DNA of 50,492 bases. Source: a virus. The position numbers and the translations under genes were made by a program. Below the pieces are notes generated by a model. The model made no database searches and was not told the origin of the DNA. It was given only the letters and a program-made list of their open reading frames with translations. The DNA lies in the IMG/VR virus record IMGVR_UViG_3300020473_000043, positions 1 through 50,492 of that record; one strand, given 5' to 3'. Positions 1,622-10,712 of the stretch are shown here, piece by piece (the stretch's first letter is position 1; the number at the start of each line of letters is the position of its first letter).

Positions 1622-1654
1622 ATCGTGTGTCCAGTTGAGATTCTGGCACACGAT
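1622..1654 (+). other. strong hairpin between two small genes
   Basis: ATCGTGTG-T-CCAG (1622-1634) pairs with CTGG-CACACGAT (1643-1654), giving 12 pairs with one bulged T and an 8-base loop. No T-tract follows, so a factor-independent terminator is unlikely. The right arm and loop resemble the TTGACAAAGTGGCACA element of the following cassettes. It may be an mRNA 3' end or processing site. Confidence 0.5.
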
Positions 1655-1657
1655 TCG

Positions 1658-1685
1658 TTGTATTCGTACTCAAATGGATTATAAT
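1658..1685 (+). promoter_or_regulatory. promoter upstream of the 82-residue ORF
   Basis: TTGTAT (1658-1663) and a perfect TATAAT (1680-1685) are 16 bases apart, about 23 bases before the ATG at 1709. Confidence 0.5.
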
Positions 1686-1708
1686 ACGATTGTTGTTACA
1701 AATTCTCT

Positions 1709-1957
1709 ATGATTAACACAGTTGATTCTGATTACTTTGGAATGACATTCTACTTCGATGATGATAACAATCTAATGTATTCACCCTCGTTAATTGAAGG
1801 TGGATATGATAAAGATTGTGAAGGTTATGTTAGTGAGTGGGATGATTGGGAAGGAGTTAATTACAACAAACTATTTGAAATTGTATCTCAATTAGTATCA
1901 CTTAAGATCAAAGATGTTGATGAATACTATGAGAAACAAATGCAATTAGTTGCCTAA
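1709..1957 (+). CDS. small acidic hypothetical protein
   Basis: 82 residues, strongly acidic: DDDNN near residue 20 and EWDDWEG near residue 45. The C-terminal third looks helical (NKLFEIVSQLVSLKIKDVDEYYEKQMQ). It has its own promoter (1658-1685) and a strong terminator 18 bases after the stop, so it is a one-gene transcription unit. No convincing Shine-Dalgarno sequence is visible. Acidic small early phage proteins sometimes mimic DNA or bind host enzymes, but nothing specific shows that here. Family not recognised. Confidence 0.7.
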   Translation: MINTVDSDYFGMTFYFDDDNNLMYSPSLIEGGYDKDCEGYVSEWDDWEGVNYNKLFEIVSQLVSLKIKDVDEYYEKQMQLVA

Positions 1958-1974
1958 GTATAAACAATTCATAG

Positions 1975-2013
1975 TCCAGTTGGGGGTTCGTACACCCTCA
2001 GCTGGATTTTTTT
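1975..2013 (+). terminator. intrinsic terminator
   Basis: A 13-bp stem (1975-1987 with 1994-2006, two G-U pairs) with a TCGTAC loop is followed by seven T (2007-2013). It closes the unit of the 82-residue gene. Confidence 0.85.
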
Positions 2014-2079
2014 CAGCCTGAATCCAATCTACAAACTGGCACACATTTTTCCCATTCGTGGGTCTGATCGTTTATATTA
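2014..2079 (+). repeat. 66-base junction repeat, copy 1
   Basis: Begins CAGCCTGAATCCA, contains TACAAACTGGCACACA and CCCATTCGT, and ends ATCGTTTATATTA. The same order and length recur at 2803-2868. It covers the region from just after a terminator T-tract to the -10 box of the next gene. Confidence 0.7.
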
Positions 2080-2090
2080 TAAGAGTAAAC
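2073..2090 (+). promoter_or_regulatory. cassette promoter (TATTAT with AGAGTAAAC tail)
   Basis: TATATTATAAGAGTAAAC. The same block recurs before other cassette genes. The -10 is TATTAT at 2075-2080. No -35 box stands at the usual distance. Confidence 0.65.
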
Positions 2091-2106
2091 CAAAAAAGGA
2101 GATCGT

Positions 2107-2334
2107 ATGAACGGTTGGAAGGATTACGAAACTTGGAATGTGGCACTCTGGATTCAGAATGAGCGTTCACTTTATGACCTTGCCCTTGAATGTTGCGGTT
2201 ATCAGGAATTCATGAACGTGATTCAAAATGATTGTGGATTCTACGAAACCAACGACGGGGTGAGATGGGAGGACGCAGATTACTGCGAAATTCAAAGCAT
2301 GTTCAACGAAATGAAAGCAACCCAACATGGATAA
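2107..2334 (+). CDS. small YETWN-type conserved hypothetical protein (DUF7249-like)
   Basis: 75 residues starting MNGWKDYETWNVALWIQNE. This N-terminal signature (Y-E-T-W-N followed by LW) is familiar from short phage and bacterial proteins grouped, as far as I recall, as DUF7249; function unknown. Trp and Tyr are frequent, with cysteines near residues 29, 30 and 43. AGGAG (2098-2102) is an excellent ribosome site. The stop overlaps the next ORF by eight bases, so the two are probably translationally coupled. Confidence 0.75.
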   Translation: MNGWKDYETWNVALWIQNERSLYDLALECCGYQEFMNVIQNDCGFYETNDGVRWEDADYCEIQSMFNEMKATQHG

Positions 2335-2461
2335 GACACTCACATTCAATTCTGAAGAGTTGGAAATTCTCACGGAGTTATTCTCTGAGGTTGCTGCCCT
2401 AGAGTATCCCGTATCAGAGACACCCGAATACGATGCCCTTTGGGAGAAAATCGTCAGTTAA
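2327..2461 (+). CDS. small acidic hypothetical protein, overlapping its neighbour
   Basis: 44 residues from ATG to TAA, starting inside the last codons of the preceding gene. The sequence (MDKTLTFNSEELEILTELFSEVAALEYP...) is acidic and mostly helical in pattern. A terminator follows nine bases after the stop. The overlap and shared unit make it a plausible real gene. Family not recognised. Confidence 0.55.
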   Translation: MDKTLTFNSEELEILTELFSEVAALEYPVSETPEYDALWEKIVS

Positions 2462-2469
2462 ATCTATAC

Positions 2470-2491
2470 CCCCCATTCGTGGGGGTTTTTT
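2470..2491 (+). terminator. intrinsic terminator with TTCG loop
   Basis: CCCCCA (2470-2475), TTCG loop, TGGGGG (2480-2485), then six T. Confidence 0.9.
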
Positions 2492-2518
2492 AATGGAAAA
2501 AATCCAGCTGGAAATCAG

Positions 2519-2534
2519 TTGACAAAGTGGCACA
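2519..2534 (+). repeat. TTGACAAAGTGGCACA junction element
   Basis: Exact copy of the 16-base element. Here it lies after the terminator and about 30 bases before the next -10 box. No -10 box stands 16-18 bases downstream. Confidence 0.8.
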
Positions 2535-2565
2535 AGATCGCTTGATTTTTGCCCCATTTTATGGC

Positions 2566-2573
2566 ATTATAAT
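2566..2573 (+). promoter_or_regulatory. -10 box almost touching a start codon
   Basis: CATTATAAT with TATAAT at 2568-2573; the ATG of the next gene starts at 2577. Transcription would begin at or just inside the ATG, so the message would be leaderless. Confidence 0.5.
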
Positions 2574-2576
2574 AAT

Positions 2577-2771
2577 ATGTTCAATCCTAATACTACTTTC
2601 AATCCAGCGTTCCCTTACGCTGTAGTCTGTGCATCCGCACCACATGAAAACACAGTTTTCAAAACTCTTGACGAATGTTGGGGACTTTGCCTCGATTTAT
2701 CCGAAGAGTACGGTCACTCTGAAATATGGTATGGTAAATGCCTCATGGGTGAATACCATAATGGACAGTAA
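2577..2771 (+). CDS. small hypothetical protein, possibly from a leaderless message
   Basis: 64 residues (MFNPNTTFNPAFPYAVVCASAP...) with cysteines near residues 18, 34, 38 and 54 and a Trp/Gly/His-rich C-terminal half. There is no ribosome site: a -10 box sits three bases upstream. The terminator after it begins inside the last codons, with its stem covering the stop. A second frame over the same DNA (2629-2820) is open but runs through the terminator, so I reject it. No family recognised. Confidence 0.6.
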   Translation: MFNPNTTFNPAFPYAVVCASAPHENTVFKTLDECWGLCLDLSEEYGHSEIWYGKCLMGEYHNGQ

Positions 2772-2788
2772 ACCAACTGTCCTTTTTT
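2763..2788 (+). terminator. terminator overlapping the stop codon
   Basis: GGACAGT (2763-2769), AAACCA loop, ACTGTCC (2776-2782), then six T. The left arm is the end of the coding sequence. Confidence 0.85.
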
Positions 2789-2802
2789 ATTGGCAAAAAA
2801 TC

Positions 2803-2868
2803 CAGCCTGAATCCAGTTGACAAAGTGGCACAAGATATTCCCATTCGTACCCGAAATCGTTTATATTA
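2803..2868 (+). repeat. 66-base junction repeat, copy 2
   Basis: CAGCCTGAATCCAG, then TTGACAAAGTGGCACA (2817-2832), CCCATTCGT and ATCGTTTATATTA, in the same order as 2014-2079. Together the copies show that whole junctions were duplicated. Confidence 0.7.
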
Positions 2869-2873
2869 AGAAT
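2859..2873 (+). promoter_or_regulatory. cassette promoter, variant
   Basis: GTTTATATTAAGAAT, like the block at 2071-2085 but with the AGAGTAAAC tail degenerated. The ATG follows at 2894. Confidence 0.45.
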
Positions 2874-2893
2874 GTCCCAAAGATTTCACCCTT

Positions 2894-3121
2894 ATGAGAC
2901 TACAACATGGAGAAACAGTTGTTGACTATTATCCAACGAAATCGTGGATTGATGATTCTATTAACCCTGATAAATTTCTCAAGGTAGTAACATATAACGG
3001 CAAAACTGTCGTTAAAGATGTTATTAATCAGGCAAAGATGACAAGGCAAATTAATAACCATCTTGCCCGAAAATGGAAAGCAATTTCTAACAACACCCTT
3101 CCACAATACGTTCGTTCTTAA
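2894..3121 (+). CDS. small basic hypothetical protein
   Basis: 75 residues, basic in the C-terminal half (INQAKMTRQINNHLARKWKAISNN), which could form a nucleic-acid-binding helix. The N-terminal half alternates as beta strands (GETVVDYYPTKSWIDD, FLKVVTYNGKTVV). No clear Shine-Dalgarno sequence; the ATG is 20 bases past the promoter block. The next ORF begins one base after its stop, so the two form a pair. Family not recognised. Confidence 0.65.
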   Translation: MRLQHGETVVDYYPTKSWIDDSINPDKFLKVVTYNGKTVVKDVINQAKMTRQINNHLARKWKAISNNTLPQYVRS

Positions 3122-3289
3122 ATGTCACAAACTGTTCGCACACTAACTATCACTGAAGCAGAGGAAACTGCATTAGTTGATATGATACAATACTTCAACG
3201 ATTTGGGTTGGATTAATGACTCAAATATTGATGAATATGAGTCACTAAGTTCAAAGATATGTGAACCCGCATTTTGGGAGTACAGTTGA
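3122..3289 (+). CDS. small acidic hypothetical protein ending inside the junction element
   Basis: 55 residues (MSQTVRTLTITEAEETALVDMIQYFNDLGW...), acidic, with a helix-rich pattern. It starts directly after the stop of the previous gene. Its TGA stop is part of the TTGACAAAGTGGCACA element at 3286-3301, and a terminator follows. Family not recognised. Confidence 0.6.
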   Translation: MSQTVRTLTITEAEETALVDMIQYFNDLGWINDSNIDEYESLSSKICEPAFWEYS

Positions 3290-3301
3290 CAAAGTGGCAC
3301 A
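3286..3301 (+). repeat. TTGACAAAGTGGCACA element containing a stop codon
   Basis: Exact copy. The TGA at 3287-3289 terminates the upstream 55-residue gene, and the terminator stem begins three bases later. Confidence 0.8.
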
Positions 3302-3303
3302 CA

Positions 3304-3326
3304 AAACCCCCATTAGGGGGTTTTTT
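3304..3326 (+). terminator. intrinsic terminator
   Basis: AAACCCCC (3304-3311), ATTA loop, GGGGGTTT (3316-3323), with T continuing to 3326. The next -10 box starts six bases later. Confidence 0.9.
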
Positions 3327-3331
3327 ATTGG

Positions 3332-3351
3332 TATTATAAAGGAGTAGTAAA
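3332..3351 (+). promoter_or_regulatory. cassette promoter
   Basis: TATTATAAAGGAGTAGTAAA, a variant of the TATTATAA-AGAGTAAAC block, immediately after a terminator T-tract. Confidence 0.6.
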
Positions 3352-3361
3352 GGAACCAACT

Positions 3362-3541
3362 ATGAGCACCCTACAAAACGAAATGATCCTTGAAAACTGC
3401 TTTGACGAGGCATGGGAATCATTCAGAGTCAACAACAAATTAACCGTTGATGAAATGAATGAGTTATGTGACTTTAGTGAAGGCACACGTAACGCAATAG
3501 AAAGAAACGCACGGAAAAGGTTTGAGGACATGTGTCAGTAA
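3362..3541 (+). CDS. small hypothetical protein
   Basis: 59 residues, acidic and mostly helical in pattern (MSTLQNEMILENCFDEAWESFRVNN...), with a basic C-terminus (RNAIERNARKRFEDMCQ). AAGGA about six bases upstream serves as ribosome site. It is a single-gene unit with its own promoter (3332) and terminator (3556). The stop runs into a degenerate copy of the junction element (ACAAAGTGTCCACT). Family not recognised. Confidence 0.65.
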   Translation: MSTLQNEMILENCFDEAWESFRVNNKLTVDEMNELCDFSEGTRNAIERNARKRFEDMCQ

Positions 3542-3555
3542 ACAAAGTGTCCACT

Positions 3556-3579
3556 AAAACCCCTAAACGGGGTTTTTTT
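3556..3579 (+). terminator. intrinsic terminator
   Basis: AAAACCCC (3556-3563), TAAAC loop, GGGG then seven T (3569-3579). Confidence 0.9.
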
Positions 3580-3583
3580 GGTC

Positions 3584-3601
3584 TATATTAGAATAGTAAA
3601 C
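3584..3601 (+). promoter_or_regulatory. cassette promoter
   Basis: TATATTAGAATAGTAAAC, starting five bases after the preceding T-tract; then CGGAG as ribosome site. Confidence 0.6.
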
Positions 3602-3615
3602 AAAACGGAGCACTC

Positions 3616-3849
3616 ATGCTTTTTGAAATCATTTCAGACAATGTTGACTTTATGTTCACGGATGTCGAAGAGATCGGTAGCAGCGACGTTTCAATTTGCG
3701 TTAATCGGATCATTAAAGAGTATGCACCCTTTACTGAGGATTACGCAAGCACACCCACCAGGCAGGTCATCCGTAGGATGGTCAACAACTGCATTTCAAC
3801 TTTAAATGATTTGCACGAGTGTCAGGTTAGAGAGTATGACACTCTATAA
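3616..3849 (+). CDS. small acidic hypothetical protein
   Basis: 77 residues. The N-terminus is hydrophobic and acidic (MLFEIISDNVDFMFTDVEEIGSSD); the C-terminal half is helical with Arg residues (RQVIRRMVNNCISTLNDLHECQV). CGGAG eight bases upstream of the ATG supports this start. An ATG in another frame (3578) is open over the same DNA, but it would start inside the terminator T-tract and has no ribosome site, so this frame is preferred. One-gene unit. Family not recognised. Confidence 0.7.
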   Translation: MLFEIISDNVDFMFTDVEEIGSSDVSICVNRIIKEYAPFTEDYASTPTRQVIRRMVNNCISTLNDLHECQVREYDTL

Positions 3850-3859
3850 ACTGCACACT

Positions 3860-3882
3860 AAAACCCCACATGGGGTTTTTTT
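3860..3882 (+). terminator. intrinsic terminator
   Basis: AAAACCCC (3860-3867), ACAT loop, GGGG (3872-3875), then seven T. ACTGCACACT, a degenerate junction element, lies just upstream. Confidence 0.9.
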
Positions 3883-3886
3883 CATG

Positions 3887-3900
3887 TATTATTAAAAAGA
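3887..3900 (+). promoter_or_regulatory. cassette promoter, variant
   Basis: TATTATTAAAAAGA, four bases after the T-tract. The AGAGTAAAC tail is not well kept. Confidence 0.5.
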
Positions 3901-3918
3901 TCAAAAGCATTTTTTCTT

Positions 3919-4047
3919 ATGTTCGTTGACCCACGCTATGAGGATGAGGCAATCTCCGCACTAATGGAAGAGGCATTATCCGAAACCTTAGAAGATACAA
4001 AATTCGATGTTGAAAAATACATTGAAAATTCTGACTTCGACTGGTGA
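3919..4047 (+). CDS. very small, very acidic hypothetical protein
   Basis: 42 residues with about 15 Asp or Glu and only three basic residues (MFVDPRYEDEAISALMEEALSETLEDTK...). It is the first of three tightly packed ORFs: the next starts five bases after its stop. The upstream region is T-rich without an obvious ribosome site. The arrangement between a promoter and a terminator supports expression. Family not recognised. Confidence 0.5.
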   Translation: MFVDPRYEDEAISALMEEALSETLEDTKFDVEKYIENSDFDW

Positions 4048-4052
4048 TCCCT

Positions 4053-4187
4053 ATGAACACTACATTACGTTATTGGTTTCCTGGTGAACAGTTCGCCCGT
4101 CGCATTTCTTTCAGGACATACGCTCAAGCACTGGACTGTATTGAAATGTTTAAGCAAATCCAAGTCAAAGCGGAGGTCGTAGTATGA
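4053..4187 (+). CDS. very small basic hypothetical protein
   Basis: 44 residues (MNTTLRYWFPGEQFARRISFRTYAQALDCIEMFKQIQVKAEVVV), basic and aromatic. It starts five bases after the preceding stop and overlaps the next ORF through ATGA (4184-4187), a typical translational-coupling overlap. Family not recognised. Confidence 0.55.
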   Translation: MNTTLRYWFPGEQFARRISFRTYAQALDCIEMFKQIQVKAEVVV

Positions 4188-4285
4188 GGACACTGACTGC
4201 CGAAGAGTATCGGGCATTATGTGAATCCGATGCCATTAAAATAGGACAGGATGTAGAAGAGGATGAGATAGAAGAGGACAGTTGA
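4184..4285 (+). CDS. 33-residue acidic peptide ending in the junction element
   Basis: From the coupled ATGA to the TGA at 4283-4285, which lies inside a TTGACAAACTGCACAC variant of the junction element. The C-terminus is extremely acidic (DVEEDEIEEDS). GGAGG about ten bases upstream of the ATG (4172-4176) is a good ribosome site and supports translation. Confidence 0.5.
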   Translation: MRTLTAEEYRALCESDAIKIGQDVEEDEIEEDS

Positions 4286-4297
4286 CAAACTGCACAC
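4282..4297 (+). repeat. junction element, variant TTGACAAACTGCACAC
   Basis: Differs from the common form mainly in CTGC for GTGGC. It holds the stop of the upstream gene and is followed at once by a terminator. Confidence 0.7.
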
Positions 4298-4299
4298 TA

Positions 4300-4321
4300 A
4301 ACCCCCCAAAGGGGGTTTTTT
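4300..4321 (+). terminator. intrinsic terminator
   Basis: AACCCCC (4300-4306), CAAA loop, GGGGG then six T (4311-4321). Confidence 0.9.
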
Positions 4322-4326
4322 ATTGC

Positions 4327-4344
4327 TATATTATAAAAGTAAAC
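4327..4344 (+). promoter_or_regulatory. cassette promoter
   Basis: TATATTATAAAAGTAAAC, six bases after the T-tract; one of the best matches to the shared block. Confidence 0.65.
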
Positions 4345-4360
4345 ATCGGATCTGAATCCT

Positions 4361-4711
4361 ATGCCTGTTAAGTCAACTGCTGCAAATCCTACAAAGGCAA
4401 CAACCCCACGTAAGAGACGCACACGTAAGACTTCAACAACTGCAAAGGCAACAAAACCAGCAGTTAAAAAAACACCCGTTGCCAAAGTTACTGTCACTAC
4501 TTTCAAAAGTGGCAAGGTCGTTGCTAAGAAAACCACTTTGAAACGCCCTTCAACTGCCCGTCTCATCACACCTCAAAGGTACATTGCAGACATTCAAACC
4601 CGTTGGCAAATCCACAATTTTGAGATCCAGGAATTGATCTCAGATTTTATGAAAGGATTTCAGGCAGTAAAACCCTACCATGCCGAATTGGTAAAAATGG
4701 TTAAAGATTGA
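4361..4711 (+). CDS. histone-H1-like basic protein (Lys/Thr/Ala/Pro-rich tail)
   Basis: 116 residues. Residues 1-67 are low-complexity and strongly basic, built of Lys, Arg, Thr, Ala and Pro (for example TTPRKRRTRKTSTTAKATKP), as in bacterial and phage H1-like proteins that coat DNA without a folded core. Residues 68-116 are ordinary and helix-like (QRYIADIQTRWQIHNFEIQE...), perhaps a dimerisation or partner-binding unit. Acting on phage or host DNA is an inference from composition. It has its own promoter and terminator. No strong Shine-Dalgarno sequence. An open frame on the opposite strand here is a shadow of the Lys/Thr codons. Confidence 0.7.
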   Translation: MPVKSTAANPTKATTPRKRRTRKTSTTAKATKPAVKKTPVAKVTVTTFKSGKVVAKKTTLKRPSTARLITPQRYIADIQTRWQIHNFEIQELISDFMKGFQAVKPYHAELVKMVKD

Positions 4712-4712
4712 A

Positions 4713-4732
4713 CCACTTGACAAAGTGGCACA
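4713..4732 (+). repeat. junction element forming a perfect hairpin
   Basis: CCACTT (4713-4718), GACA loop, AAGTGG (4723-4728); TTGACAAAGTGGCACA is 4717-4732. Only this copy has the complete 6-bp stem. A terminator starts two bases later. Confidence 0.7.
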
Positions 4733-4734
4733 CC

Positions 4735-4758
4735 AGCACCCCACGGGGTGCTTTTTTT
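4735..4758 (+). terminator. intrinsic terminator
   Basis: AGCACCC (4735-4741), CACG loop, GGGTGCT (4746-4752), T to 4758. The stem sequence differs from the C5/G5 stems of its neighbours. Confidence 0.9.
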
Positions 4759-4762
4759 ATGG

Positions 4763-4780
4763 CATTATATAAGAGTAAAC
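4763..4780 (+). promoter_or_regulatory. cassette promoter
   Basis: CATTATATAAGAGTAAAC with the complete AGAGTAAAC tail, then AAAGGAG (4782-4788) as ribosome site. Confidence 0.65.
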
Positions 4781-4793
4781 AAAAGGAGCACTT

Positions 4794-5024
4794 ATGCAAC
4801 TTCGCCCTATCGCTTCCAACATGACCCAGTTGGACCTTGCAGACGGAACCTCAGTTTTATTTTCCTATAAAACACCCGTAGCAGCATTAACCGATAACGG
4901 GTATTACAGGACTTCTACCAAATGGTCAGTTACAACATCCCGTCATATCAATAAGTGGTTAGACGGAGTGCTTGCAAAGGATCAACCTCAGTCGTACTTT
5001 GATAACCTATGTGCAGGTTTTTAA
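4794..5024 (+). CDS. conserved small hypothetical protein (FSYxTPVAA family, perhaps DUF8033)
   Basis: 76 residues with a recognisable pattern: LRPIASNMTQLDL, then FSYKTPVAA, then KWSVTTSRHINKWLDG. I recall similar short proteins in phages and bacteria, possibly grouped as DUF8033; function unknown. AAAGGAG stands five bases before the ATG. It is a one-gene unit whose stop runs into a degenerate junction element (AGTGAACACT) and a terminator. The Trp/Lys/His-rich C-terminal segment could contact nucleic acid, but that is a guess. Confidence 0.7.
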   Translation: MQLRPIASNMTQLDLADGTSVLFSYKTPVAALTDNGYYRTSTKWSVTTSRHINKWLDGVLAKDQPQSYFDNLCAGF

Positions 5025-5034
5025 AGTGAACACT

Positions 5035-5055
5035 AAACCCCCGAAAGGGGGTTTT
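5035..5055 (+). terminator. intrinsic terminator with GAAA loop
   Basis: AAACCCCC (5035-5042), GAAA tetraloop, GGGGGTTT (5047-5054), then one more T. Confidence 0.85.
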
Positions 5056-5062
5056 CATTTGG

Positions 5063-5076
5063 TATTATAAAAGAGT
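5063..5076 (+). promoter_or_regulatory. cassette promoter driving a structured leader
   Basis: TATTATAAAAGAGT. The expected start (about 5075-5077) coincides with the first paired base of the rod-shaped fold downstream. Confidence 0.65.
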
Positions 5077-5175
5077 GGGAGACGAGGTTGGCATCCCTGA
5101 GATTCTTAATTAGACTCGGCAAACGGGTTAGCATAGAATCAGACATCTGCTACCTCACCCACAACAAACTTTTTT
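5075..5175 (+). ncRNA. candidate structured RNA: rod-shaped hairpin leader or small RNA
   Basis: Five nested helices fold this non-coding stretch into one rod: 5075-5079/5158-5162 (GTGGG/CCCAC), 5084-5088/5152-5156 (GAGGT/ACCTC), 5091-5093/5148-5150 (GCA/TGC), 5101-5106/5135-5140 (GATTCT/AGAATC) and 5114-5118/5124-5128 (ACTCG/CGGGT, one G-U), with a GCAAA loop. Six T follow at 5170-5175, so it could end as a free small RNA of about 100 nt. Otherwise it is the 5' leader of the ligase-like gene at 5186. It starts at the predicted transcription start. No known riboswitch or tRNA signature seen. Confidence 0.5.
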
Positions 5176-5185
5176 CCCGATTTTG

Positions 5186-6097
5186 ATGACAAAAAACCTT
5201 CACATTGAACACCCCGAAGACAGCATCCTTACAGGTGACCTCACCGTATTGGATGCTTTTTTAATGCCCCAACATTTGTCGGTCAAATACGACGGAGCAC
5301 CCGCTATTGTATGGGGTACAAATCCAGCAACGGGCAATTTCTTTGTCGGTACAAAATCAGTATTCAATAAAAGGAAAATCAAAATTAATGAGTGCCATAC
5401 GGACATTGATCAAAATCATGACGGGAACGTTGCAGAGATTCTCCATGCTTGCCTTGATAATCTTCCAGACCATGACGGAATTATTCAGGGTGACTTTATT
5501 GGATTCGGAGGACAGCACGAATACACCCCGAACACAATTACATATGCCTTCCCTGATCAGGTTGACGAGGACATCATTGTTGCACCCCATACAGAATATT
5601 TGGCAGACTCGGACCTTCGTGATGCAATCGCCCGACCCCTTATGGAAGAGATGGAAGGGACGGAGTGCTGCAAATTTGTCCAACCTGGTGCAGGTGTTCA
5701 CTCTGGCAGTTTTGAATATTTTGAAGACTCTTTTGAGTTGGGTGACCTCTGTAAGTTCGCAAGGATCATGTCAGGACTGGTCGAATTTGAAGACGCTAAG
5801 GGAGCAAAGCAACTTAAGCAGGACCTTAATGCGTATATCAGAGACGGTGACGAAATCATCCCCGAAGAGTTTGCAAATTATCAACTGGTCAGACTCTGGA
5901 AACTGGTTAAGGAAATTAAGGAATGTGCCCTATCACAATGTCGCCACCGTTGGGGACCTGAGGCATACATTGGTTATGACCTCATAGATGCGGAGGGTTA
6001 TGTGATGCACTCTGACCTTGGTTCCTGGAAATTGGTCCTTCGTGAGACATTCTCTCATGCTAATTTCAATAATACAAAATGGTGTGCCACATCATAA
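5186..6097 (+). CDS. covalent nucleotidyltransferase-like protein (DNA/RNA ligase fold, DUF6267-like)
   Basis: 303 residues from the ATG at 5186 (an upstream in-frame TTG at 5183 is less likely). The order of motifs fits the ligase/capping-enzyme superfamily, in which a lysine takes AMP or GMP from a nucleotide triphosphate: motif I K34-Y-D-G37 (SVKYDGAPAIVWG), a middle strand QGDF at 101-104, motif IV E270-G-Y-V273, and motif V K282 in WKLVLR. I recall VKxDGAP proteins of marine phages named DUF6267; substrate unknown. It lacks the C-terminal domains of larger ligases. The gene has a structured leader and its own promoter, so it may be regulated separately. Repair of nicked RNA or DNA is plausible; it could also modify another substrate. 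Confidence 0.65.
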   Translation: MTKNLHIEHPEDSILTGDLTVLDAFLMPQHLSVKYDGAPAIVWGTNPATGNFFVGTKSVFNKRKIKINECHTDIDQNHDGNVAEILHACLDNLPDHDGIIQGDFIGFGGQHEYTPNTITYAFPDQVDEDIIVAPHTEYLADSDLRDAIARPLMEEMEGTECCKFVQPGAGVHSGSFEYFEDSFELGDLCKFARIMSGLVEFEDAKGAKQLKQDLNAYIRDGDEIIPEEFANYQLVRLWKLVKEIKECALSQCRHRWGPEAYIGYDLIDAEGYVMHSDLGSWKLVLRETFSHANFNNTKWCATS

Positions 6098-6110
6098 ACC
6101 GCATACAATA

Positions 6111-6129
6111 GGGGTCATATGCTGACCCC
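6111..6129 (+). terminator. hairpin after the ligase-like gene (weak terminator)
   Basis: GGGGTCA (6111-6117), TATGC loop, TGACCCC (6123-6129). There is no proper T-tract, so termination may be partial. Confidence 0.5.
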
Positions 6130-6135
6130 GTCCTT

Positions 6136-6153
6136 TATAATAACAGAGTAAGG
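6136..6153 (+). promoter_or_regulatory. cassette promoter
   Basis: TATAATAACAGAGTAAGG; TATAAT at 6136-6141 with a near copy of the AGAGTAAAC tail. Confidence 0.6.
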
Positions 6154-6168
6154 CACACCCCTCAAACT

Positions 6169-6387
6169 ATGAACCCATTTCACGGTCAAACTATGAGCAC
6201 CTTTACACCCTCAAAAGAAATCAAATTTAAAGTGACCCGACTTAAGACTGCTCATGGTGCTGCAGCACTCAGATGGGCGGACAGAATTAAGGGAGGATCT
6301 TCCAGAGTTCGCACCCACGGTGGGGCGGCAGGTAGCAGAGGGACCAGCATGACGACGACTGCCTCTGCTTTGCAGGATGTTCGCTGA
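6169..6387 (+). CDS. small basic hypothetical protein
   Basis: 72 residues, basic, ending in a Gly/Ser/Thr/Arg-rich stretch (RIKGGSSRVRTHGGAAGSRGTSMTTT). The DNA of the second half is clearly more GC-rich than anything nearby. An internal ATG at 6193 would give 64 residues and may be the true start; neither has a good ribosome site. An open frame on the other strand covers the same DNA, but the promoter (6136) and terminator (6416) favour this strand. Family not recognised. Confidence 0.45.
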   Translation: MNPFHGQTMSTFTPSKEIKFKVTRLKTAHGAAALRWADRIKGGSSRVRTHGGAAGSRGTSMTTTASALQDVR

Positions 6388-6415
6388 CCTCATTAGTTCG
6401 TGACATCACCAGTTG

Positions 6416-6437
6416 CCCCCGTTATGGGGGTTTTTTT
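6416..6437 (+). terminator. intrinsic terminator, last of the cassette region
   Basis: CCCCC (6416-6420), GTTAT loop, GGGGG (6426-6430), seven T. Beyond it the base composition drops to AT-rich. Confidence 0.9.
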
Positions 6438-6535
6438 ATGCCCCCCGTATATAAAAACGAAAGGAACCCCTAAGCTATAAAGTGTTACGAAAGCGAGATA
6501 AAAATAACAATCACCTCTAAAAATTTTTTCGATAC

Positions 6536-6745: not shown

Positions 6746-6912
6746 AAACCTATCATGTATACTTAAACGATAGAGTATTATTCAAAGATTTGGATGAATC
6801 GGAGTTTAAAGTTATATGGGGAAGATTATACCATTCTTATTATAAGGAAGAATTAACTTATTCTGAGATATCGCAAGAACCGAACGAACAATATATTGAA
6901 TCATCTTATTGA
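6742..6912 (+). CDS. small hypothetical protein, coupled to the AbrB-like gene
   Basis: 56 residues, rich in Tyr and Glu (MKTYHVYLNDRVLFKDLDESEFKVIWGRLYHSYYKEELTY...). The first half resembles small proteins built of two strands and a helix. The start overlaps the upstream stop (ATGA). The stop TGA (6910-6912) is inside the TTGACA box of the next promoter. Its position next to an AbrB-like gene recalls antitoxin-toxin pairs, but no toxin motif is seen. Family not recognised. Confidence 0.6.
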   Translation: MKTYHVYLNDRVLFKDLDESEFKVIWGRLYHSYYKEELTYSEISQEPNEQYIESSY

Positions 6913-6937
6913 CAGTTACTATATAATCTGATATAAT
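6909..6937 (+). promoter_or_regulatory. perfect consensus sigma-70 promoter
   Basis: TTGACA (6909-6914), 17-base spacer, TATAAT (6932-6937). The spacer itself contains another TATAAT (6922-6927). The expected start is near 6944, 17 bases before the glycosyltransferase ATG. It is the only exact consensus promoter noticed in the window. Confidence 0.85.
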
Positions 6938-6960: not shown

Positions 6961-7764
6961 ATGGCTAAAGGATTTACAGTAAAAGCAAAACCGCCTACTT
7001 CTAGAAAAAAGGAAGAAGATTGGAATATTGATGCTATTAAAGAAAGAATGAGAGGTAAGGCAATTGTATTTTGCTTACCAGGTAGAGGTGTGTCATATGC
7101 TTACTTAAAAAACTTTGTACAATTATGCTTTGACCTTGTACAAAACGGATGCAGTATTCAAATATCTCAAGATTATTCATCTATGGTAAACTTTGCACGT
7201 TGCAAGTGTCTTGGAGCAAATGTACTAAGAGGACCTAAGCAAAAACCTTGGGATGGAAAACTTAAGTATGATTATCAATTATGGATAGATTCTGATATTG
7301 TTTTTGATACTAATAAGTTCTGGCAATTATGTGATATGGCAATTCCTGCAGATGCTGTGAATGAAGATGGTAGTGTAGATGAAGATAAAAAGAGATCTAT
7401 TGTTGCAGGTTGGTATTGTACCGAAGATGGTAGAACTACTTCTGTAGCACATTGGTTAGAAGAGGAAGATTTTCGTAGCAATGGTGGTGTGATGAATCAC
7501 GAAACCCTCGAAAGTATATCCAAGCGTCGCAAACCTTTCACAGTAGATTATACAGGTTTCGGATGGCTTCTAATTGCAAATGGAGTATTTGAGAAACTTG
7601 AATATCCTTGGTTTGCTCCTAAGATGCAAGTATTTGAATCTGGTGAGGTTCAAGATATGTGTGGAGAAGATGTAAGTTTCTGTTTAGATGCCAAGGAGGA
7701 AGGTTTTGAAATCTGGTGCGACCCTCGAATTCGTGTAGGTCACGAAAAAACACGCATAATCTAA
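6961..7764 (+). CDS. GT-A-type glycosyltransferase-like protein
   Basis: 267 residues. A DxD-type metal and nucleotide-sugar site is seen at D110-S-D112 within LWIDSDIVFD. A G235-E-D237 motif (CGEDVSFCLDAKEEGF) fits the catalytic acid region, and a late His (H261, VGHEKT) often completes metal binding in GT-A enzymes. The first 30 residues are basic and may be disordered. The family moves a sugar from a nucleotide to an acceptor; here the target could be phage DNA bases, a virion protein or a host surface sugar. It has a consensus promoter and a GAAGGA ribosome site, and is coupled by taATG overlap to the next gene. Confidence 0.7.
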   Translation: MAKGFTVKAKPPTSRKKEEDWNIDAIKERMRGKAIVFCLPGRGVSYAYLKNFVQLCFDLVQNGCSIQISQDYSSMVNFARCKCLGANVLRGPKQKPWDGKLKYDYQLWIDSDIVFDTNKFWQLCDMAIPADAVNEDGSVDEDKKRSIVAGWYCTEDGRTTSVAHWLEEEDFRSNGGVMNHETLESISKRRKPFTVDYTGFGWLLIANGVFEKLEYPWFAPKMQVFESGEVQDMCGEDVSFCLDAKEEGFEIWCDPRIRVGHEKTRII

Positions 7765-8446: not shown

Positions 8447-8848
8447 ATGGCTGTTCAGAGGATATCAAGAGCATTTAAGGATATTAGTTTATCTTTTAAC
8501 ATGCATCCAGTTACTAAGGATATCACTGCAATTAAAAATTCGGACGCAATTAGAAGATCTATTCGTAATATTGTACAAACAGTACCAAGTGAGCGATTTT
8601 TTAACCCCGATTTTGGTTCGGAAGTAAAATCAAGCCTATTTGAATTCGTTGATATTGGTACTGCCTCTGTACTTGAGTCTCAAATAAGGATTGCAATTGA
8701 GAATTTTGAGCCAAGAGTAACAAATTATACAGTTGAGGTAAACCCAAGACCAGATTTGAACTCATTTGAAGTTACTGTGTTCTTTCAAATAGTTGGATTA
8801 GATACTCCATTACAACAATTCTCTTATATTCTAGAAGCAACAAGATAA
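8447..8848 (+). CDS. gp25: gp25 baseplate wedge protein
   Basis: 133 residues, the size of T4 gp25 (132). The pattern FKDISLSFNMHPVTKDITAIKN, then AIRRSIRNIVQTVPSERFFNPDFGS, then LFEF is that of the GPW/gp25 family (PF04965), a sheath-nucleating wedge protein that ties the baseplate inner ring to the tail sheath. It is the first gene of the large late block and lies one base before gp6. Preceded by a TATAAATA promoter. Confidence 0.92.
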   Translation: MAVQRISRAFKDISLSFNMHPVTKDITAIKNSDAIRRSIRNIVQTVPSERFFNPDFGSEVKSSLFEFVDIGTASVLESQIRIAIENFEPRVTNYTVEVNPRPDLNSFEVTVFFQIVGLDTPLQQFSYILEATR

Positions 8849-8849
8849 T

Positions 8850-10712
8850 ATGCCTTTTACTAAATTTACAAACCTAGATTTTGATCAAATAAAGTCCTCA
8901 ATTAAGGATTATCTTCGTGCAAATACAACTTTTACGGATTTTGACTTTGAGGGATCAAACTTTTCTGTATTAATTGATACACTTGCCTATAATACTTACA
9001 TAACGGCATTCAATTCTAACATGATTGTTAACGAATCTTTCTTAGATTCGGCAACTTTAAGGGAAAATGTTGTTTCTTTAGCAAGAAATATTGGATATGT
9101 ACCTCGTTCTAAGACTGCTGCGACTGCAACAGTATCATTTTCAGTACCTGTTTCCTTTACTACAGGACAATTAGTACTAAAAGCAGGTTTAATATGTGTT
9201 GGTGCATCCGAAAACACTTCATATACCTTCTCAACATACGAAGATATTACTACTAATGTTATTAATGGTGTTGCAACCTTTACTGATGTTAAAGTTTATC
9301 AAGGTTCTTACCTAACAAGGAATTTTACAGTCGATACTTCATATAATCAAAGGTTTATTCTAAGTAATCCTGATATTGATACTTCTACTATTACTGTAAA
9401 TGTTGGAACTCGTGAATATAAACAGATTGATAACATAATAACGATTGATAGTGCATCAGAAATCTATCTTTTACAAGAAGTTGCTGATGAAAGTTATGAA
9501 CTTCTCTTTGGTGATGGTATTCTTGGTAAGAAATTAAGTAATGGTGATATAATTAAAATAGGATATGTTGTAACAAAAGGAACTGATGGTAATGGACCTT
9601 CCTTATTCAATTATGCAGGAACTACAACTACTAGTGAAGGAGTTATAACAAATCCAACTGGACCAGTAACTATTAGTACTACCACATCTGCCTCTGGAGG
9701 AGGCGACATTGAGCCTATTGAATCTATTAAGTATTTTGCCCCTAGAATCTATGCATCGCAGAACAGGGCGGTTACAGCAAGGGATTATGAAGCAATAGTA
9801 CAAAAAATATATCCTAATACTGAATCAGTATCTGTTGTAGGTGGAGAAGAATTAGATCCTCCAGAATTTGGTAAAGTAATACTTAGTATTAAACCTAAAA
9901 ATGGTACAACTATATCTGATTTTACAAAAAATCAAATATTGAATGATTTAAAACAATACTCTGTATCTGGTATTAATCAAGAAATTGAAGATCTTAAACT
10001 ACTATATGTTGAAATTGATAGTGATGTATTTTATGATTCTTCAAGAGTAAGTAAAATATTAGATCTAAAAACAAATGTAACAACTGCATTAGAAAGATAT
10101 TCTAAATCAGTTGATTTAAATAAATTTGGTGGGAGATTTAAGTATAGTAAAACTTTGCAAGTAATTGATCAAGTTGATACAGCAATTACTTCAAATATTA
10201 CTAGAGTTAAGATGAGAAGAAATCTTAATTGTGTGTTAAATACATGGGCTCAATATGAATTATGTTTTGGTAATAAATTCTATAAAAAATTAGGGGCATA
10301 TAATATAAAGAGTACTGGATTTAAATTAGCAGAAAGTAATGAGACCGTATATATTGTAGATGTTCCTTCTGAAGATAGTGATATTGGAATTATTTCTATT
10401 GTTAAACCAACAGATGATCCAGATAGTTATGAGATTGTTAAAAAATCAATAGGTACAGTTGATTATGCTAAAGGAGAAATACTTATTAATACTATTAATA
10501 TAGTTTCTACAGAATTATCTGATGGTGTTGTTGAAATTCAAGCATATCCAGAATCTAATGATGTTATAGGTCTTAAGGACTTATACTTAATTTTTGACAT
10601 GTCAAAAAGCACTATAAATATGGTTAAAGATACAATTGCTTCAGGAGAGCAAATTTCTGGAGTTAATTATCCCGTAAGATCAAGTTATTCAAACGGAACA
10701 TTAACGAGGTAA
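8850..10712 (+). CDS. gp6: gp6 baseplate wedge protein (baseplate J family)
   Basis: 620 residues against about 660 in T4. The N-terminus (FTNLDFDQIKSSIKDYLRANTTFTDFDFEGSNFSVL) and the block SARDYEAIVQKIYP-type (here TARDYEAIVQKIYPNTESVSVVGGEE, about residues 310-335) are those of gp6/baseplate J proteins. gp6 forms the continuous inner ring of wedges that triggers sheath contraction. It starts two bases after gp25 and ends ten bases before the gp7-position gene. A TATAAATA string at 10613-10620 lies inside the gene. Confidence 0.92.
   Translation: MPFTKFTNLDFDQIKSSIKDYLRANTTFTDFDFEGSNFSVLIDTLAYNTYITAFNSNMIVNESFLDSATLRENVVSLARNIGYVPRSKTAATATVSFSVPVSFTTGQLVLKAGLICVGASENTSYTFSTYEDITTNVINGVATFTDVKVYQGSYLTRNFTVDTSYNQRFILSNPDIDTSTITVNVGTREYKQIDNIITIDSASEIYLLQEVADESYELLFGDGILGKKLSNGDIIKIGYVVTKGTDGNGPSLFNYAGTTTTSEGVITNPTGPVTISTTTSASGGGDIEPIESIKYFAPRIYASQNRAVTARDYEAIVQKIYPNTESVSVVGGEELDPPEFGKVILSIKPKNGTTISDFTKNQILNDLKQYSVSGINQEIEDLKLLYVEIDSDVFYDSSRVSKILDLKTNVTTALERYSKSVDLNKFGGRFKYSKTLQVIDQVDTAITSNITRVKMRRNLNCVLNTWAQYELCFGNKFYKKLGAYNIKSTGFKLAESNETVYIVDVPSEDSDIGIISIVKPTDDPDSYEIVKKSIGTVDYAKGEILINTINIVSTELSDGVVEIQAYPESNDVIGLKDLYLIFDMSKSTINMVKDTIASGEQISGVNYPVRSSYSNGTLTR

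Follow-up and report, generated by a model that had tools for sequence, protein, structure and literature searches.

A candidate system of exchangeable expression cassettes with composite promoter-terminator joints in a T4-like cyanophage

How does a phage come to carry a row of small genes, each of which seems to bring along a promoter and a terminator of its own, and what would such a row be good for? The question is raised by IMG/VR virus record IMGVR_UViG_3300020473_000043 (positions 1 to 50,492, the whole stretch analysed, hereafter “the window”), a 50.5 kb fragment of a T4-like cyanophage whose nearest relatives are Kyanoviridae. At 1632-6440 it contains 11 consecutive forward units with about 16 small open reading frames (ORFs), every unit having a -10-like box and an intrinsic terminator hairpin. 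This array is real, and a first-pass annotation of the letters alone had rightly placed such units between 1.7 and 6.4 kb. It sits upstream of gp25 in a hyperplastic region, among variable small ORFs; the gp25-like ORF begins at 8447 and the gp6-like ORF at 8850, and their position relative to the array is the same as in P-SSM2, S-SKS1 and S-SRM01. The reading that we consider probable is that the cassettes of this array are expressed autonomously, meet at composite promoter-terminator joints and are exchanged by recombination between these joints. At the level of sequence, comparison shows a fixed spacing between a dyad and the -10 box, predicted terminators nested in the promoters, conservation across genera, and gain or loss of cassettes at pairs of junctions.

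The dyad promoter

The units (u1 to u11) are preceded by junctions (J1 to J11), ten of which contain a dyad, CASTT-N4-AASTG, followed by an nCAC-type tail; its best form, CAGTTGACAAAGTGGCACA, occurs in four exact copies. In all 10 dyad junctions of the window the -10 box starts 47-49 nucleotides (nt) from the start of the dyad. The relatives used here are loci from two protein-seeded searches, some of them close kin. Among them, a dyad search blind to the -10 box gave 84 non-redundant plus-strand sites, around which -10-like hexamers matched 74 times at offsets 47-51 (33 of them at 48) and almost nowhere else. Because the most frequent offset is 48 whether the spacer contains a hairpin (59 sites) or none (46 sites), dyad and -10 box are best read as a single promoter in which the hairpin is a passenger. 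The features of the array are, in window coordinates:

1632-1685 (+): J1 junction; dyad 1632-1651, -10 TATAAT 1680-1685, no hairpin in between
1709-1957 (+): u1 ORF, 82 amino acids (aa), PHROG 13427, function not annotated
1973-2014 (+): terminator T1; stem 1973-2008, -23.8 kcal/mol, T-tract to 2014
2025-2080 (+): J2 junction; dyad 2025-2044, -10 TATATTAT 2073-2080, terminator before the dyad
2107-2334 (+): u2a ORF, 75 aa, DUF7249/PHROG 871
2327-2461 (+): u2b ORF, 44 aa
2468-2492 (+): terminator T2
2516-2570 (+): J3 junction; dyad 2516-2535, -10 CATTAT 2565-2570
2577-2771 (+): u3 ORF, 64 aa, PHROG 17176
2763-2791 (+): terminator T3, overlapping the end of u3
2814-2867 (+): J4 junction; dyad 2814-2833, -10 TATATT 2862-2867
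2894-3121 and 3122-3289 (+): u4a and u4b, a two-gene unit, PHROGs 500 and 15219
3283-3337 (+): J5 nested junction; dyad 3283-3302 (overlapping the u4b stop), hairpin 3303-3324, -10 TATTAT 3332-3337
3362-3541 (+): u5 ORF, 59 aa, PHROG 14136
3536-3589 (+): J6 nested junction; dyad 3536-3555, hairpin 3556-3576, -10 TATATT 3584-3589
3616-3849 (+): u6 ORF, 77 aa
3840-3892 (+): J7 nested junction; dyad 3840-3859, hairpin 3860-3879, -10 TATTAT 3887-3892
3919-4047, 4053-4187 and 4184-4285 (+): u7a, u7b and u7c, a multi-gene unit
4279-4332 (+): J8 nested junction; dyad 4279-4298 (perfect CAGTT-N4-AACTG), hairpin 4299-4318, -10 TATATT 4327-4332
4361-4711 (+): u8 ORF, 116 aa, basic, PHROG 27005
4714-4768 (+): J9 nested junction; dyad 4714-4733, hairpin 4735-4752, -10 CATTAT 4763-4768
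4794-5024 (+): u9 ORF, 76 aa, PHROG 5643, the most mobile cassette among relatives
5014-5068 (+): J10 nested junction; degenerate dyad 5014-5033, hairpin 5036-5055, -10 TATTAT 5063-5068
5075-5162 (+): structured 5'-leader RNA of u10, with covarying helices
5186-6097 (+): u10 ORF, 303 aa, DUF6267/PHROG 455
6111-6141 (+): J11 junction; hairpin 6111-6129 beside -10 TATAAT 6136-6141, no clear dyad
6169-6387 (+): u11 ORF, 72 aa, second start at 6193
6415-6439 (+): T11, last terminator of the array

The annotation had given nearly every small gene a unit of its own, but u2, u4 and u7 hold two or three ORFs. The majority of the cassette proteins fall in PHROG families without known function, and a Pfam search of these proteins gave only DUF7249 (u2a) and DUF6267 (u10) above the cut-off.

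To which gene does the dyad belong? In J5-J8 and J10 it runs over the stop codon of the gene before it, in J5-J10 as a whole it overlaps or abuts that codon, and there it stands just before the terminator. The first-pass annotation had treated it as an element of the preceding unit. It could then be a 3' end, serving RNA processing, a small RNA or the terminator, with promoters made of a -10 box only and independent of the dyad; its core, CAGUU-N4-AACUG in RNA, could also fold as a small hairpin. We consider this very improbable. In J2-J4 the dyad lies past the preceding terminator and so would be untranscribed, yet its distance from the -10 box is unchanged, just as it is in relatives without any hairpin. 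The half-sites are paired in 51 cases against 45.6 expected, with no covariation beyond expectation and no compensatory changes, and a DNA operator bound by protein therefore fits better than an RNA stem. The RNA stem was ruled out on this ground and because the dyad is outside the transcripts in J2-J4. In P-SSM2 and Syn9, moreover, dyads stand alone upstream of operons. The dyad is thus assigned to the promoter that follows, merely overlapping the stop codon of the gene before.

This promoter would consist of the dyad and its nCAC at about -60 to -42, a C-rich -35 segment and a TATWAT-type -10 box. TATTAT, which had been annotated as the promoter of each unit, does precede some of them, but the others have TATATT, TATAAT or CATTAT. 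The -35 position is rich in C even in sites without a hairpin (52-63% C at offsets 25-28) and often reads CCCCATTCG. A generic sigma70 scan (TTGACA-16/18-TATAAT) of the array region found no excess (32 against 31.6), because the array promoters have no TTGACA box at 16-18 nt; a TTGACA within the dyad was rejected as a -35 box, being about 40 nt upstream of the -10. In our proposal the dyad would be bound by a protein, probably a dimer, that brings in RNA polymerase and so takes the place of the -35 contact. A promoter class different from that of the array is found at 6909-6937, where a perfect TTGACA-17-TATAAT lies upstream of a conserved 267-aa ORF at 6961 (PHROG 1574). The late promoter core ATAAATA is strongly avoided outside promoters (10 copies in the window against 39.9 expected), and several copies are located 20-45 nt upstream of structural ORFs (8421, 27428, 36425, 44964).

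The promoter recurs in other genomes. Scanning was done with a two-block model from 118 training sites, at a strict threshold and in comparison with shuffled sequence; the model and several of the tests draw on overlapping loci. The window has 12 sites against 0 in shuffles, 10 of the 12 being forward, in 1.6-5.1 kb. There are 21 against 1.3 in P-SSM2, a count somewhat favoured because its sites are in the training set, 18 against 0.7 in S-SKS1, and 20 against 0.7 in a 152 kb metagenomic relative (G002), while Syn9 has 6 against 0-1. Outside arrays, the P-SSM2 sites precede a helicase gene, a small ORF after dam, a peptidase gene and cobS. Those of Syn9 are found before gp73, the neighbour of the helicase gene on its upstream side, before gp78, cobS and gp150 (a peptidase gene), and near gp90, among others. 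The genes so preceded resemble early or middle genes. According to a review, cyanomyoviruses have neither motA nor asiA, and their early and middle control is unclear (PMC2984593). A wrongly spaced control pattern gave 71 stretches in viral contigs, mostly within loci that also have true sites (at least one in 59 of 64); specificity was therefore not judged from the scans of these contigs with the exact 16-mer or the strict pattern. In S-SKS1 (L124 3765-3860), a large inverted repeat carries the dyad motif in both arms, one copy facing the other way (TGTGCCACTTCCCCGACTGTCAC / GTGACAGTCGGGGAAGTGGCACA), and might be a divergent double promoter.

Terminators within the promoters

The terminator hairpins of the array fold at -9.4 to -23.8 kcal/mol, and positions 1-9 kb of the window contain 20 terminator-like sites against 6.0 +/- 2.9 in shuffles. 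The parts with structural genes have 6 against 5.5 (9-29 kb) and 11 against 5.9 (29-49 kb), with no strong GC stem. An Rfam match to SpF51 at 3279-3326 (E 0.05, below gathering) was taken as a chance similarity between hairpins.

The annotation had put about 4-25 nt between the T-tract and the next promoter, and the actual distances are distributed otherwise. In J2-J4 the preceding terminator is upstream of the dyad, and 58-72 nt separate its T-tract from the -10 box. In J5-J10 the terminator of the preceding gene is lodged between dyad and -10 box, the T-tract ending 2-6 nt before the latter, and in J11 the T-run overlaps the -10 box. The C-run may be a feature of the promoter that a terminator is able to co-opt for the 5' arm of its hairpin. 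In the six or seven junctions where the spacer holds the terminator of the preceding unit, it would then double as hairpin arm, and a joint of about 70 nt would end one transcript and start the next.

Such close quarters can also be read differently. With T-tracts ending 2-6 nt before the next -10 box in J5-J10 and hairpins in 59 of the 105 spacers of the relatives, the nested terminator might be regulatory and not insulating: polymerase would stall or dissociate on the next promoter, and neighbours would interfere or be coupled. This seems unlikely to us, as the architecture persists while neighbours change freely, and the hairpin is absent from many sites.

Exchange of cassettes among relatives

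Do the cassettes actually move? Gene content and order were compared in 51 non-redundant loci between conserved flanks, u0 upstream and d1-d3 downstream. Both vary strongly; the conservation in relatives that the first-pass annotation had named as evidence against its reading is thus not seen. The window has the order u1-u2a-u2b-u3-u4a-u4b-u5-u6-u7-u8-u9-u10-u11; among the relatives, L131 and L132 have u5-u6-u9-u7a-u8, L163 and L171 u9-u7a-u5-u3, L148 u1-u3-u6-u7a-u8-u9-u10-u2a-u5, and L155 u0-u7a-u1-u9-u10-u2a. Across these loci, 34 of 37 copies of u9 have a dyad promoter directly upstream, although the genes before them are of many different kinds. The figures are 8/8 for u6, 11/12 for u3 and 19/23 for u7a; for an operon-internal gene the figure is 0/9. 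The cassettes retain their own promoter, whatever the neighbour.

The joints themselves are conserved around genes that are not. Between the window and its close relative L204, several junctions and 5' untranslated regions are 91-99% identical, and the ORFs that they enclose (u2a, u8, u9) only 49-66%; at u9, J9 is 97% and the 5' untranslated region 96% identical, against 63% for the ORF in between. Cassettes have therefore apparently been replaced between joints. Of 184 clean indel endpoints, 70 are in junction zones (28.0 +/- 4.5 under random placement), and 31 indels have both ends in junctions, against 13.7 +/- 2.8 under a stricter null of random gene boundaries. These junction-junction indels mostly have 30-60 nt common to both flanks, other indels a few nt. 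When homologous inserts are clustered (n=32), 12 clusters run from junction to junction, 13 are at other gene boundaries and 7 are inside genes.

In the mechanism that we propose, similarity between joints would let homologous recombination remove, add or exchange a cassette so that exactly one joint is left, and every gene would stay independently expressible after the shuffling. A single shared junction is the leftover to be expected when two joints recombine, or when a cassette comes in together with one joint.

Would ordinary mosaicism not suffice? Illegitimate recombination at any gene boundary, followed by selection for intact genes, would leave the junctions no part to play, and 29 of 75 indels do lie at gene boundaries that have no junction. 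Little or no junction excess, as this explanation would have it, is seen in adjacency loss and in the identity changepoints, both given below. Junction-junction indels, on the other hand, are more than twofold above the gene-boundary null, and long common flanks accompany them where other indels have a few nt. We hold mosaicism of this kind to be rather unlikely.

Several points nevertheless weigh against the reading that we favour. Adjacency loss does not differ between junctions and tightly packed genes (difference 0.00, 95% -0.15 to 0.16), and identity changepoints in 22 locus pairs are only mildly enriched in junction zones (95 against 69.8 expected, about 1.4-fold). Some replacement edges fall within units, at u2a/u2b and u7a/u7b in comparison with L204. 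The indels of related loci are not fully independent, the 31 junction-junction events reducing to 12 clusters. Termination and independent expression at the junctions are predictions, and the factor binding the dyad is putative. In cellular genomes, the strict pattern matches 24 stretches where we estimate that about 22 would be expected; none was found in marine picocyanobacterial genomes, and the matches that recur are confined to phage-like contigs and one Calothrix/Dulcicalothrix locus. The isolated cellular matches are probably due to chance.

The Calothrix/Dulcicalothrix locus, conserved in L462, L464, L466, L469, L475 and L481, matches the dyad/-10 pattern as CAGTTAGnAAAGTGTCACC...TATTATATA, by homology or coincidence.

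We conclude that the junctions appear to be favoured but not exclusive points of exchange. The exchangeable cassettes of the first-pass annotation thus hold in so far as indels favour pairs of junctions and promoters stay with their genes, but changes also occur within units; the breakpoints that it expected in junctions are seen in the indels, but not in adjacency loss and only slightly in the changepoints.

Leader RNA, neighbouring elements and known systems

Among the parts that move is an RNA. The u10 leader is built of two covarying helices with an invariant 7 x 7 internal loop (UCCCUGA/AGACAUC), and its apical helix is variable. In 20 distinct sequences, with helix registers picked by eye and one bulge allowed, 97.9% of pair cells are standard (73.3% in shuffles) and 67 are changed on both sides (17.0 +/- 3.5). 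A search tolerating mismatches in the loop added hardly any variants, 29 of 30 having none. Copies are found at L123 8160, L228 96 and L498 580, in L509, L105, L017 and L515, and in others. Since most of them stand 23-82 nt past the -10 box of a dyad promoter and in front of several unrelated genes, the leader seems to move with or between cassettes. In the window region and in the four loci tested it has no match in Rfam. It may be a stabiliser of the 5' end, a leader binding a ligand or protein, or a ribozyme.

The surroundings have features of their own. An HNH endonuclease gene, possibly a mobile element, adjoins the array at 223-735 on the minus strand (PHROG 59/959). At 1060-1530, dense CGAGAT / CTACGAGAT repeats run from non-coding DNA into the u0 ORF (1364-1528); a diverged repeat word, CTCGACGAG, takes the equivalent place in relatives (L123 5270-5650; L124 3230-3610).

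How new is such an arrangement? Promoter-early stem-loop (PeSL) cassettes have been described in the T4-type phages RB49/phi1, PST/T4 and nt-1/KVP40 (Arbiol et al., 2010; Comeau et al., 2014, via PMC4503421). As summarised there, they resemble the array in being short intergenic cassettes of promoter and stem-loop terminator in hyperplastic regions, and in being associated with indels and with small early genes that are shuffled as modules. For cyanophage S-PM2, Puxty et al. judged that its PeSLs were too few to account for the acquisition of ORFans (PMC4503421). In the array the terminator is inside the promoter and the joints are dense and back to back. The array promoter has no TTGACA -35 and has its dyad some 48 nt upstream of the -10 box, whereas PeSL promoters are, as a class, strong sigma70-like early promoters (TTGACA / TATAAT); encapsidated mini-circles also count among the PeSL traits. 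Thus, the idea of shuffling expression cassettes is already known for T4-type phages, the dyad promoter, the nesting and the density being what differs, and we rate the array as a PeSL-like shuffling system that, strictly speaking, falls outside the PeSL family.

Other systems are comparable in part. In T4 middle promoters the MotA box is about 30 nt upstream of the start, and the dyad of the array is at about -53. Doron et al. 2016 (ISME J) reportedly found a new regulatory element, conserved and unlike those of T4, that drives early genes in Syn9 and P-TIM40, as the dyad promoter would. The two may be one and the same; neither terminator nesting nor a role in cassette exchange is known to have been described for that element. 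Lambdoid morons are additional genes, each with a promoter and terminator of its own, that one phage has and a relative does not. They are usually single genes between unrelated operons, whereas the array shares one type of junction able to recombine with itself. In haloarchaeal tailed viruses, the intergenic motifs of HGTV-1, a TATA-like box with an inverted repeat, have been likened to PeSLs. Together with the class I/II intergenic repeats of HF2 they are repeated promoter-bearing modules before early genes, as in the array (PMC3950731, PMC8707807); they differ in having archaeal promoters and unrelated sequence, and are not known to contain comparable nested intrinsic terminators.

A fuller reading is put forward only tentatively, and we think it possible but less likely than not to hold in its entirety: the dyad would be the operator of a dimeric activator, whose targets would make up an early regulon of kyanoviruses, and the terminator-in-promoter joint, with its C-rich -35 as hairpin arm, would be a dedicated recombination handle for swapping small anti-host genes and their 5'-leader RNAs between phages with expression kept. 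What does the array mean for these phages? A promoter model that can be scanned for makes the early/middle regulon of T4-like cyanophages testable, and the PeSL idea is extended to a lineage where, from S-PM2, it had been judged unlikely. The junction signature offers a countable mechanism by which small uncharacterised phage genes may travel as cassettes ready for expression; as the genes are joined by a mark, the boundaries of cassettes in cyanophage dark matter would become predictable from sequence alone.

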